A DNA stretch of 64,000 nt from Georgenia sp. M64 (GTDB lineage: Bacteria > Actinomycetota > Actinomycetes > Actinomycetales > Actinomycetaceae). Numbering within the stretch: the stretch's first letter is position 1; each line of letters opens with the position of its first letter. Under the pieces are notes generated by a model. That model was not told where the DNA came from and made no database searches. It saw only the letters and a program-made list of their open reading frames with translations. The DNA is taken from NCBI RefSeq assembly GCF_038049925.1, contig NZ_CP145809.1:2762599-2826598 (forward strand), given 5' to 3'. This document shows, one piece after another, positions 37,658-52,272 of the stretch. The position numbers were made by a program, and so were the translations under genes.

Positions 37658-39295
37658 TCAGCGCGGCTCGACGCCGTGGTGGAGCAGACCCCAGGTGACG
37701 GCCTCGGTGAGCGCCTCCCAGCTCGCCTCGATGATGTTCGTCCCCACCCCCACGGTGGACCAGCTGCGCACGGAGTCCGACGTCTCGATGAGGACCCGGA
37801 TGGTCGCGTCGGTGCCCTGCTGGGTGTCGAGGATGCGCACCTTGTAGTCGATGAGCTCGAAGTCCTCGATCTCGGGGTAGGTGCCCACGAGCGCGGCGCG
37901 CAGGGCGTGGTCGAGGGCGTTGACCGGACCGTTGCCCTCCCCGGTGCTGACCATCCGCCCGTGGCCCGTGCGCAGCTTCACCGTCGCCTCGGAGTCCACG
38001 GTGCCGTCCCGCCCGGGCCGGTGCTCGACGAAGGTCCGCCAGCTCTCGACCTCGAAGTAGCGCGGCGCGCGGCCGTCGAGCTCCTCCCGCAGCAGGAGCT
38101 CGAACGAGGCGTCCGCGGCGTCGAAGGTGTACCCCTGCGCCTCGGCGTCCTTGACCCGCTGGGTCACGCGCCCCAGCAGCTCGGAGCGTCCGGACAGGTC
38201 GAAGCCGAGCTCGCGGCCCTTGAGCTCGATCGATGCCCGCCCGGCCATCTCCGAGACGAGCATGCGCATGTCGTTGCCGACGGCGGTGGGGTCGATGTGC
38301 TGGTAGAGGTCCGGGTCGACCCGGATCGCGGAGGCGTGCAGACCGGCCTTGTGCGCGAAGGCCGACGCGCCCACGTAGGGCTGGCGGCCGTAGGGGCTGA
38401 TGTTGGTGATCTCCGAGACGGCGTGGGCGACCCGGCTGGCCTCGGCGAGCCCGGCCCCGTCCAGGACGGGGGTGTCGAGCTTGAGCTGGAGGTTGGCGAC
38501 GCAGGTGAGCAGGTCGGCGTTGCCGGTCCGCTCGCCGTACCCGTTGACCGTGCCCTGGACGTGCCCGGCGCCGGCGGCCACCGCGGCGAGGGTGTTCGCG
38601 ACGGCGCAGCCGGAGTCGTTGTGTGCGTGCATCCCCAGCCGCCCGGTCGTCGCGGCGCGGACCTCGCCGACGACCTGGGCGACCCAGTCGGGCAGCATCC
38701 CGCCGTTGGTGTCGCACAGCACGACCGTCTCGGCCCCGGCCTCGAACGCCGTCCGCACGCACCGCAGGGCGTAGTCGGGGTCGAAGCGGTAGCCGTCGAA
38801 GAAGTGCTCGGCGTCGACGACGACCTCCCGGCCCAGGCCCACGAGGTGGCGCACGGTGTCACCGATCATCCGGAGGTTCTCCTCGCCGGTGGTGCGCAGC
38901 GCCCGCTCGACGTGGCGCACGTCGCTCTTGGCGACGAGCGTGACGACCGGCGCCTCGGACTCCACCAGGGCGCGCACCTGGGCGTCCTCCGCCGGTAGCG
39001 CGCCGGGCTTGCAGGTGGCCCCGAAGGCGGCCAGGCGTGCGTGGCGCAGGTCGAGCTCCTTGGCGGCCCGGGCGAAGAACTCGGTGTCCTTGGGGATCGC
39101 GCCCGGCCAGCCACCCTCGATGTAGTCCACGCCGAGCTCGTCGAGCAGGGCGGCGATGGCGAGCTTGTCCGCCACCGAGAGGTTCATCCCCTCCTGCTGG
39201 GCGCCGTCGCGCAGCGTCGTGTCGTAGACCTGGACCGTCGTGGCCGGGCCGGCGCTCGGCGCGGCGGTTCCGGGGGCGGCTGCGGTGCTGGACAT
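37658..39295 (-). CDS. cimA: Citramalate synthase
   Basis: A 545-residue LeuA-family enzyme that condenses pyruvate with acetyl-CoA to (R)-citramalate, a threonine-independent route to 2-oxobutyrate and isoleucine. [20 protein letters not shown] opens the TIM barrel; [21 protein letters not shown] and [16 protein letters not shown] are the catalytic and subgroup motifs. The C-terminal regulatory domain of about 120 residues is complete. GAGGAG lies five bases before the ATG. The leader and terminator upstream predict control by attenuation. Confidence 0.92.
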
Positions 39296-39416
39296 GTGAA
39301 CTCCTCGAGGGCCGGTCGGGCGACGTGGTCCCAGCTCGTTCCGGCGGCGGTGGTGCCGGTACCGGTGCTGCCGGTCCTTCCCGGCAACCGTTGCCGGGAG
39401 GGGTGGCCCCAGCAAC

Positions 39417-39444
39417 AAAAAAACCTCCCGGGGTACGGGAGGTT
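39417..39444 (-). terminator. Rho-independent attenuator terminator before cimA
   Basis: On the minus strand AACCTCCCG pairs perfectly with CGGGAGGTT around a 5-nt loop and is followed by seven T (the A-tract 39417-39423 on the plus strand). It lies between the leader-peptide stop and cimA, so it can only act inside the cimA transcript. Confidence 0.9.
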
Positions 39445-39472
39445 GCGCATCGGGCGGGTGGGCCTGATGCGC
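39445..39472 (-). promoter_or_regulatory. Pause-type hairpin overlapping the cimA leader stop
   Basis: GCGCATC (39466-39472 on the complementary strand) pairs with GATGCGC (39445-39451) across a 14-nt loop. It overlaps the TAG stop of the leader peptide and adjoins the terminator, the arrangement of a 1:2 pause structure in a ribosome-mediated attenuator. I could not find a clear antiterminator pairing. Confidence 0.5.
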
Positions 39473-39501
39473 TAGCCGATAATGAGCTGGGACGGCGTCA
39501 C
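39472..39501 (-). CDS. cimA leader peptide with Leu-Ile-Ile
   Basis: A nine-residue ORF, MTPSQLIIG, starting GTG and ending TAG. It carries CTC-ATT-ATC (Leu-Ile-Ile) near the end, where a ribosome stalled for lack of charged tRNA would alter folding of the terminator downstream. ATT is a rare codon in this genome. A promoter 7 nt upstream of the GTG makes a leaderless mRNA likely. Isoleucine is the product of the CimA route, which fits. Confidence 0.65.
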   Translation of the reverse strand: MTPSQLIIG

Positions 39502-39508
39502 GTCCGTC

Positions 39509-39537
39509 AGTGTGCCACATCGCCGTCCGACTGTGGA
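39509..39537 (-). promoter_or_regulatory. Putative promoter of the cimA leader transcript
   Basis: TCCACA (39532-39537) and CACACT (39509-39514) are separated by 17 bp on the minus strand. Seven bases then separate the -10 from the leader GTG, so transcription should start at or next to the start codon. Confidence 0.45.
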
Positions 39538-39653
39538 CGGGTGCGCCCACATCGTGGACCCGGCGCGCCACCCCCGCCGGCGACCCGGCGCCGGACCACA
39601 CCTACCGCTCGAACCGCGACGTCCCCCCGTTCCGCACGAGAGCGCGGCGGGTA

Positions 39654-40811
39654 TCACACGAGCCGGTACATCCACTCGTGCGGGTCCGGTCGGTGGCCGT
39701 ACTGGATCTCGGTGAGCGTGCCGTAGAGCTCGCGCGTGGTCTCCCCCGGGGCGCCGTCGGCGACCGTGACGTCGAAGTCGGCGCCGGCGAGCCGGCCGAT
39801 CGGCGTGATGACCGCCGCGGTCCCGCACGCGAAGAGCTCGCGCACCGCCCCGGACCGGATCTGCTCGAGCAGGGCCGCGAGGGTGATCGTCTCCTCGCGG
39901 ACCTCCCGACCGCCGTCGCGCAGGAGCTGCAGGATCGACGCCCGGGTCCCGCCCTCGAGGATGGTGCCCGTCAGCGCCGGGGTGCGCACCGCGCCGTCGG
40001 CGTCGACGACGAAGACGTTCATCCCGCCCAGCTCCTCGAGCTGCGTGCCGGTGGCCGCGTCGAGGAAGCACACCTGCTCGAACCCCTTGGCGTAGGCCTC
40101 CTGCTGGGGCAGCAGCGACGCGGCGTAGTTGCCGCCGGTCTTGGCCGCGCCCGTCCCGCCGGGGCCGACACGGTGGAAGTCCTGCGAGACCCAGATCGAG
40201 ACCGGGGTGAAGCCGTGCGGGAAGTACGGGCCCACGGGCGACGCGATGACGAGGTAGTCGATCTCGTGCGCGGCCCGGACCCCGAGGAACGCCTCGGTGG
40301 CCACCATGAAGGGGCGCAGGTACAGGCTCGAGCCCTCGGACCCGGGGACCCAGCGCTCGTCAGCCGCGACGAGCGCGGCGAGCGAGCCGACGAAGTCCTC
40401 CTCGGGCAGCTCGGGCAGGGCCAGGCGACGGGCCGATGCGTTGAACCGGGCGGCGTTGAAGCCGGGCCGGAAGGTCCAGACCGACCCGTCGTCGTGCCGG
40501 TAGGCCTTGAGCCCCTCGAACACCTCCTGGCCGTAGTGGAGGACGGCGGCGGCCGGGGAGATCGTCAGCGGCCCGAAGGCCTCGGTGCGCCGCTCGTGCC
40601 AGCCTCGCTCCTGCGTCCAGCGGGCGCGGCCCATGTGGTCGGTGAACGCGACCCCGAAGGAGAGCTTGCCCATGACCTCACCGTGCGCGTCGGCGCCGGC
40701 CGGGGCCGTGTTGGGGGTCAGCGGGAACCGCTTCGCCACCTCCGCGGCGGGCGGGAGCTGGGCGGCGGAGAGCCCGGTGAGGGTGGCGACCTGCTCGGAC
40801 GAGGTGCTCAT
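39654..40811 (-). CDS. ilvE: Branched-chain amino-acid aminotransferase
   Basis: A 385-residue fold-type IV PLP enzyme that makes or breaks Val, Leu and Ile. The PLP lysine is K224 in GAAKTGGNYAAS; HYGQEVFEGLKAY (residues about 92-104), SLYLRPFM, GMNVFVV and ACGTAAVITPIG are family motifs. Length fits the actinobacterial large-subunit type. A short intergenic stretch separates it from leuB upstream; the 358 bp downstream hold the cimA leader region. Confidence 0.95.
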   Translation of the reverse strand: MSTSSEQVATLTGLSAAQLPPAAEVAKRFPLTPNTAPAGADAHGEVMGKLSFGVAFTDHMGRARWTQERGWHERRTEAFGPLTISPAAAVLHYGQEVFEGLKAYRHDDGSVWTFRPGFNAARFNASARRLALPELPEEDFVGSLAALVAADERWVPGSEGSSLYLRPFMVATEAFLGVRAAHEIDYLVIASPVGPYFPHGFTPVSIWVSQDFHRVGPGGTGAAKTGGNYAASLLPQQEAYAKGFEQVCFLDAATGTQLEELGGMNVFVVDADGAVRTPALTGTILEGGTRASILQLLRDGGREVREETITLAALLEQIRSGAVRELFACGTAAVITPIGRLAGADFDVTVADGAPGETTRELYGTLTEIQYGHRPDPHEWMYRLV

Positions 40812-50604: not shown

Positions 50605-50724
50605 TGTTCGGCGGTGTCCTACTCTCCCACACAGTCTCCCGTGCAGTACCATCGGCGCTGAGGGGCTTAGCTTCCGGGTTCGGAATGGGACCGGGCGTTT
50701 CCCCCTCGCTATGACCGCCGTAAC
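50605..50724 (-). rRNA. rrf: 5S rRNA, copy 1
   Basis: About 120 nt, with the actinobacterial 5S sequence (5' GTTACGGCGGTCATAG, ACGCCCGGTCCCATTCCGAA, 3' GACACCGCCGAACA). Appears identical to copies 2 and 3. Ends set by comparison with known 5S genes. Confidence 0.93.
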
Positions 50725-50868
50725 TCTGTCGAGTTGTGCGCAACCCCTTCCGCGTTCCCCTCGTTTCCGCCGGCCACCCGGTGTGGGGGTGGTGGTGGGG
50801 TGTGTGGGGTGCGGGGTGCGTTACCCGGGAACCGTACAGTGGACGCAAGCAGTCGTTTGGATGCTTTG

Positions 50869-51871
<1,003 letters not shown>

Positions 51872-52272
51872 AGCGACTTGTCACACCCGGCGAGCAGCAC
51901 CGATCCGTCGAGGCGCTCGGCCTGCATGACGGTCTCGACGGAGTCGGCGATCACGTCGCGGGAGACCAGCGAGAAGTGCATCCCCTCGTGCCCCATCGAG
52001 ATCCCGTCAGAGACCGAGATGGTCCCGAACTGGAGTGGATATCCGCCGCCGGCGTGGACGCCGTCCTTCGCGGCCTGCGCCAGGCGGTCGAGGGAGAGGT
52101 TGCAGGGGGTGATCTCGTTCCAGGAGCTCGCGACTCCGATCTGGGGCTTGGCAAAGTCCTCGTCGCCCATACCCACCGCGCGAAGCATGCCGCGCGCGGC
52201 GGTGGCCTCGATGCCATCCGTGACCGTGCGGCTACGGGGCTTGATGTCCGGGCCGGTAGCTGTGTCATCCAT
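51872..52272 (-). pseudogene. ilvD: ilvD 5' fragment, fused to truncated 23S
   Basis: The first 401 bp of ilvD (133 codons; same [20 protein letters not shown] start as the intact gene) end at GCDKSL and run into 23S sequence. It appears identical to 59819-60219, offset 7,947 bp. The frame continues into the rRNA for about 17 codons. It lacks most of the enzyme and two of the cluster cysteines. Confidence 0.95.

Follow-up and report, generated by a model that had tools for sequence, protein, structure and literature searches.

A conserved leader element upstream of cimA suggests isoleucine-responsive transcription attenuation in Georgenia sp. M64 and related actinobacteria

The region upstream of the citramalate synthase gene cimA of Georgenia sp. 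M64 contains a short leader ORF, a hairpin (P1), and an intrinsic terminator, and cimA is very probably controlled there by isoleucine-responsive, ribosome-mediated transcription attenuation. Judging by sequence comparison, this is a class-wide cimA element, not found in Rfam or in the literature searched, and a variant of known attenuation. The leader, its rare Ile codon, P1, the terminator, the narrow spacings between them, and their conservation were all read directly from the DNA. The genome was 4.18 Mb in length and consisted of one contig, from which a stretch of 64,000 nucleotides (the window) was analyzed; coordinates are those of the window, and (−) denotes the minus strand.

In the direction of transcription (−), the order was ilvE, a predicted extended −10 element, the leader ORF, P1, the terminator, and cimA. 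The ilvE gene (40811–39654, −) lay directly upstream of the leader region. The extended −10 element (TGG CACACT, 39509–39517, −; hexamer CACACT, 39514–39509, −) was predicted from its hexamer and its spacing of 7 nt before the GTG. The leader ORF VTPSQLIIG (39501–39472, −) consisted of nine codons and a stop codon (GTG ACG CCG TCC CAG CTC ATT ATC GGC TAG), with ATT ATC as the regulatory codons. P1 (39472–39445, −), recognized by covariation and geometry, was formed by GCGCATC/GATGCGC and an inner GGC/GCC; it began 5 nt past the last Ile codon, and its first G was the third base of the stop codon. The intrinsic terminator (AACCTCCCG-TACCC-CGGGAGGTT, 39444–39422, −) followed at 0 nt from P1 and ended in seven T/U (39423–39417, −), two of them within the stem; no other terminator was found in a scan of 39200–39700, where shuffles expect 0.2. 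The U tract, ending at 39417, was followed by 121 more bases and then by the ATG (39295–39293, −) of cimA (37658–39295, −), the product of which matched TIGR00977 with 622 bits (cut-off 450). An apparent Shine–Dalgarno sequence of cimA, GAGGAG (39306–39301, −), was identified by eye. A further inverted repeat, CCCGGCAACGGTTGCCGGG, was located between the terminator and cimA (39398–39380, −), and GC-rich stems were likewise predicted between terminator and cimA in relatives.

This direct minus-strand reading bore out the leader, the hairpin, and the terminator with seven U that the initial annotation had placed before cimA. Its leader peptide, MTPSQLIIG, was correct in its nine codons, with the written M being a GTG. 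The range 39417–39537 given there did cover the element, but 39502–39537 is predicted promoter and not leader.

The cimA gene was searched for in 213 family genomes and 393 class genomes and was present at E ≤ 1e-100 in 311 of the latter. Upstream regions were read at 30 family loci and at 59 class-panel loci picked over many families from the listed places. Of these 89 cimA upstream regions, a script assigned 70 the element, with a leader Ile codon, P1, and a terminator in this order: 16 of 30 in the family and 54 of 59 in the class panel. One more class-panel locus (L095), missed by the script on account of a 10 nt spacing, had the element as seen by eye and was matched by the covariance model described below (G337); at L073, L097, L106, and L108 the element was absent. 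By script, it was also absent from 14 of the 30 family loci (L012, L019–L031), and in most family loci without the element ilvE ended close to cimA, as seen by eye. An exact 18-base pattern was found in 28 contigs of a one-genome-per-species collection, 21 with a cimA match just downstream and seven without; named Georgenia contigs also contained the element.

Sixty of the 70 elements (alignment A1) served to build a covariance model (R1); those left out were close relatives (L003, L005, L007, L009, L016–L018) and elements with long loops (L094, L117, L118). The best match of R1 in the whole genome was the cimA leader locus (E = 3e-17); this sequence was part of the training set, and independent evidence therefore comes from comparing other genomes. 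At E ≤ 1e-4, R1 matched 246 of the 311 class genomes that have cimA and 6 of the 82 that lack it (Fisher odds ratio 48, p = 3e-34). With the 52 training genomes, all of which matched, set aside, 194 of 259 cimA genomes still contained R1. Among the 65 cimA genomes lacking R1, 41 belonged to one small-genome family; in this family of very small genomes (f30), R1 was present in 2 of 43 cimA genomes, and leaving it out gave 244 of 268. In all 40 non-training genomes sampled from the listed places, the R1 match ended 11–149 nt before the cimA match. Six genomes (G222, G242, G257, G470, G545, G563) had an R1 element and no cimA match at the cut-off used. This conservation across the class supports the earlier reading of the region as a cimA attenuator. 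Rfam release 15 gave no match in 39200–39700, either at the gathering score or at E up to 1. No cimA attenuator was found in the available portions of the open-licence PMC papers searched; neither cimA nor citramalate was named in the main text, as available, of PMC8079986 and PMC2965389, and the S. lividans leader-peptide survey, in the portion available, names eight leader peptides, none for cimA (PMC8079986).

The codons of the leader were particularly analyzed. The rarity of ATT, pointed out in the initial annotation, was confirmed: all 103 Ile codons of cimA, ilvE, leuB, ilvC, ilvN, and ilvB in the window were ATC, with 0 ATT in these six branched-chain amino acid (BCAA) genes. ATT made up 79 of the 145 Ile codons in the leaders, as against 6 of 568 in cimA ORFs of related loci. 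At least one ATT was present in 69 of 70 leaders found (the exception was L011, with LLIG), including 7 of 8 leaders with a single Ile codon; thus, the leader codons held up among relatives, which had been set as a test of the attenuator reading. As the script demanded an Ile codon and gave ATT a bonus among competing candidates, the informative figures are 70 of 89 and the codon choice. One Ile tRNA decodes both ATT and ATC. We read the rare ATT as reflecting selection for slow decoding. Leu, proposed initially along with Ile as a sensed residue, immediately preceded the first Ile in only 14 of 54 class-panel leaders; hence it is not a conserved sensor and was rejected as a co-sensor, while the part of the claim concerning Ile stood. 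Ile is the sole conserved residue among the putative sensor codons of cimA leaders.

Putative promoters of the leaders were scored as hexamers with A2 and T6 located 5–8 nt before the start codon. A −10 score of at least 5 was found in 64 of 70 chosen leader starts versus 1.9% of 1109 background start codons, and the maximum score in 56 of 70 versus 0.27%; the figures of 64 and 56 are inflated because the starts were picked by the best −10 score. The −10 box was found 6–8 nt before the leader start. Transcription is thus predicted to start at or beside the leader start codon, yielding a leaderless mRNA.

Both P1 and the terminator covary. In alignment A1, 92.5% of cells pair, and changes on both sides occurred at 14 of 21 pairs (125 cells); the covariation score was 0.302 versus 0.06–0.10 for slid partners and 0.157 for shuffled sequences. 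The invariance of the four GCGC pairs of P1 is partly a matter of construction, because the script used GCGC on either strand of P1 as its anchor. Beyond this GCGC base, P1 showed compensating changes, from GC to AU in 11 sequences at one pair and with 21 double changes at the next. No conserved P1 loop sequence was seen in the alignment.

The geometry was measured in the 70 elements on foldings of the stretch that runs from the last Ile codon to the terminator. The last Ile codon was followed by P1 after 5 nt in 45 elements and 6 nt in 11 (range 3–8), and the gap between P1 and the terminator was 0 nt in 58, at most 1 in 65, and at most 2 in all 70; these counts are conditional because the script limited both junctions (Ile codon at most 12 nt before P1, terminator start at −1 to +4 nt of a GCGC). 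The flush layout was observed in 65 of 70 elements versus 8.6 of 70 in shuffles of the same stretches. At the same time, P1 spanned 22–76 nt (mean energy −21.5 kcal/mol), and the stop codon ended 3–33 nt past the last Ile codon, just before P1 or in its loop. The geometry claim rests on 54 of 59 unselected cimA regions fitting the ranges, with values piling up at 5 and 0. When the last Ile codon occupies the A site, a spacing of 5 places the first pair of P1 at +11, counted from the P-site codon's first base; the entry helicase of the ribosome lies at this position.

Leader translation, stalling, and read-through are what we infer from these features. In the proposed mechanism, transcription would begin at the leader start codon, and a ribosome would load on the 5′ end of the RNA. 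With ample Ile-tRNA, the ribosome would pass ATT ATC, reach the stop codon, and cover P1's 5′ strand; some 18 bases further along, the terminator would fold, and transcription would stop before cimA. With no ribosome, both P1 and the terminator would fold, and transcription would likewise stop. When Ile-tRNA is short, the ribosome would stall on the slow ATT or the adjacent ATC, and P1, starting just past the ribosome edge, would fold flush against the ribosome. As the other end of P1 adjoins the terminator, the folded hairpin would place the mass of the ribosome right at the base of the terminator stem; this would impede the terminator at the RNA exit channel, and the polymerase would read through into cimA. 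Such a steric block of the terminator by a stalled ribosome and a folded P1 is a possibility that we put forward tentatively.

Classical attenuators rely on mutually exclusive hairpins. Foldings were computed with the ribosome-covered part of the RNA masked, the ribosome being placed on the first Ile codon, the last Ile codon, or the stop codon. The mean probability of the terminator was 0.97–0.98 in all ribosome states of this masked folding, which is free of pseudoknots and kinetics; as it was the same in every state, base pairing fails to explain the switch. P1 formed with a mean probability of 0.78 in ribosome-free RNA. With a ribosome in place, this value was 0.62 for the first Ile position, 0.14 for the last, where the mask covered 12 nt counted from the A-site codon's first base, and 0 for the stop codon; all of these are low estimates because P1 was mis-indexed in sequences with GCGCGC. 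Pairing of the 5′ flank of P1 with the 5′ arm of the terminator showed no excess, with at least 3 pairs in 4 of 60 sequences versus about 6.3 expected; a boundary-sharing antiterminator was therefore rejected. Given the stable terminator in all masks and no excess of boundary pairing, no mutually exclusive antiterminator was found, which corrects the attenuator reading of the initial annotation on one point: P1 and the terminator were not mutually exclusive in the foldings made, and P1 is therefore no textbook antiterminator. Either an antiterminator would be hidden, in tertiary structure or kinetics, or P1 would work by position. The reading by position would explain the narrow junctions, as the ribosome, P1, and the terminator would meet where the polymerase sits.

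Somewhat unlikely in our estimate, but the strongest of the alternatives, is classical attenuation with a true antiterminator that was missed by folding, i.e., a pseudoknot, a tertiary contact, or a co-transcriptional intermediate. For example, P1 could extend into the 5′ arm of the terminator; such an arrangement, with an adjoining antiterminator and terminator sharing a GCC, is described with mutational support for ilvBNC of C. glutamicum in the portion available of PMC11857589. P1 and the terminator adjoin at cimA too, but the boundary pairs and the unchanging terminator probabilities given above argue against it, the latter within foldings that lack pseudoknots. P1 might also be a pause hairpin that synchronises the polymerase with the leader ribosome, in which case ribosome–polymerase coupling, and not contact with P1, would decide the fate of the terminator. 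Pause hairpins occur in the trp and his leaders, the stability of P1 fits such a role, and the 3′ end of P1, flush with the terminator arm, would place the paused polymerase in the terminator loop; the pause-site sequence of P1 was inspected by eye only. Pausing alone, however, leaves the Ile-to-P1 spacing together with the zero gap unexplained, and we regard this explanation as unlikely.

We consider it very unlikely that the leader RNA is recognized by a factor acting in trans, a mechanism suggested for the leuA LEU element, with the leader codons mattering little: the genus-level long-range stem described below does recall the LEU base stem, and changes in leader codons are reported in the available text of PMC1262725 to have left ilvB regulation of S. 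coelicolor unaffected, but translation is indicated by the selection of rare ATT together with its distance from P1, and P1 has no conserved loop sequence in the alignment. A sequence-specific arrest of the ribosome by the nascent peptide, in place of a codon-specific wait for Ile-tRNA, is highly improbable and was rejected; LIIG recurs in leaders within the genus, whereas over the class the peptides vary widely (MTYSLIIS, MHSTIIIRERVDV, VPQEPTIP), and Ile and its codon ATT are kept. Most improbable is that the terminator merely ends the ilvE transcript and that the leader ORF arose by chance. The position of ilvE directly upstream in the window would suit this, but among 14 class loci that have both cimA and the element (L125–L138, about 1.5 kb on each side) ilvE was found in just 3, and the rare codon and the predicted promoter are conserved; this explanation was rejected, since the element stays with cimA where ilvE is not adjacent.

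Of the features of trp/his/leu-type attenuators, the cimA locus had a leader ORF with end-product codons and an intrinsic terminator between the leader and the gene, but not, by masked folding and boundary pairing, a mutually exclusive antiterminator. Published systems are compared here as given in the available portions of the papers cited. The ilvB leaders of Actinobacteria were described in PMC1262725 and PMC8079986, an ilvB-II motif in PMC10272879, and a three-hairpin model for ilvBNC in PMC11857589. Like the cimA leader, these actinobacterial leaders combine a short leader with BCAA codons and a P1-like hairpin beside an intrinsic terminator; in C. glutamicum, the reported start of transcription also coincides with the leader start codon or lies beside it, as predicted for cimA. 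Unlike them, the cimA leader has conserved codons for Ile only, nearly always including ATT. Adjoining hairpins are common to cimA and to the ‘fast’ attenuator of C. glutamicum ilvBNC, while the shared boundary bases of the latter were not found at cimA. For ilvB and leuA leaders from this phylum, mutants are noted to have behaved in ways that classical attenuation does not account for (PMC1262725). The leuS attenuator of Streptomyces, with antiterminator and terminator hairpins (PMC1262725; leuL2 in PMC8079986), resembles that of cimA in its BCAA leader and terminator and differs in gene and codons.

The pyrBI attenuator senses nucleotide supply. In E. coli pyrBI, a ribosome close behind the polymerase prevents terminator formation, according to the available text of PMC5021804. 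It thus offers a precedent for a translating ribosome that blocks a terminator. This system needs tight coupling of an advancing ribosome, whereas cimA would use a stalled ribosome and a folded hairpin.

Similar leaders were found before other genes. The second match of R1 in this genome (E = 0.028; L121, genome place 2260925–2261024, −) was the leader MTTVVLLTRPR, located directly before a leuS ORF (TIGR00396, 464 bits over 491 residues); its last Leu codon was 5 nt before P1, and its hairpin and terminator were flush. The ilvB leader of the window (45748–45704, −) had the Val codons GTA GTA GTT 5 nt before a GCGCGC hairpin, which abuts an imperfect terminator ending in six T (45653–45648, −). 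In an ilvB panel, a script that filtered strictly on the −10 element and accepted only gaps of up to 3 found a leader in 13 of 30 loci. The gap was 0 in 12 of these 13, and the codon-to-P1 spacing was mixed (5 nt in 5, 3–4 in 3, 1 in 2, 7 in 1, and 11 in 2). R1 matched 72 of 296 genomes sampled across the phylum, a sample that included about 15 class members with matches. Fifteen out-of-class loci were opened (L139–L153), and ilvB was identified downstream by tblastn in 12 of them (at L150 behind another ORF). In the remaining three, the element preceded leuB with a leader ending in VIIIE (L152), a prephenate dehydratase-like ORF with codons for LLIT before the stop (L139), or none of the genes tried (L153). 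The spacing in these loci is not independent evidence, because R1 includes the leader flank. More speculatively still, a single design could serve cimA (Ile), ilvB (Val/Leu/Ile), and leuS (Leu), i.e., a phylum-wide, antiterminator-free attenuator in which a folded hairpin, with one foot at the entry edge of the stalled ribosome and the other at the terminator, docks the ribosome against the terminator. The fixed parts proposed for this design are about 5 nt between codon and P1 and 0 nt between P1 and terminator, with hairpin length and stop codon left free.

In the Georgenia group, the leader start (39501–39484, −) can pair with a complementary site, GAGCTGGGACCACGTCGC (39320–39337, −), located 24 nt before the cimA start codon. 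A perfect complement of 10–12 nt was present in L002, L003, and L013, and in the folded full-length leader of L002 this long-range pairing closed a stem around P1 and the terminator. The mean z of complementarity was −2.67 in 16 Georgenia-group loci; no signal was obtained in 27 class loci with enough downstream sequence (mean z 0.07). Swapping of leaders and sites gave weak support for co-change (p = 0.029), with several non-cognate pairs stronger than the cognate ones. The long-range stem might shut off leader translation on the read-through mRNA. In the LEU element upstream of leuA, described in the available text of PMC1262725 as a pseudoknot, leucine codons pair with the Shine–Dalgarno box. 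The cimA locus is similar in its leader codons and in the ability of the Georgenia-group leader to pair with a downstream site; unlike LEU, it has a terminator, and its partner site lies 13–31 nt before the Shine–Dalgarno sequence and is not that sequence itself.

The genome contained one cimA over the family cut-off and a threonine dehydratase match over the TIGR01127 cut-off. Therefore, cimA provides a second entry to isoleucine and not the only one, a point to add to the initial annotation, which named cimA as the threonine-independent isoleucine route; attenuation would determine the extent to which the pyruvate route is used. If the proposed attenuation is true, the pyruvate-based isoleucine route would be under isoleucine attenuation in most actinobacteria with cimA, and the narrow junctions would provide an alternative to the textbook two-hairpin switch that lends itself to direct testing.

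Elsewhere in the window, partial 23S rRNA pieces were found at 50606–51892 (−), corresponding to model positions 2046–2912 and 1856–2001, together with a full 5S rRNA; beside two complete 23S copies, they look like a truncated extra rRNA operon.
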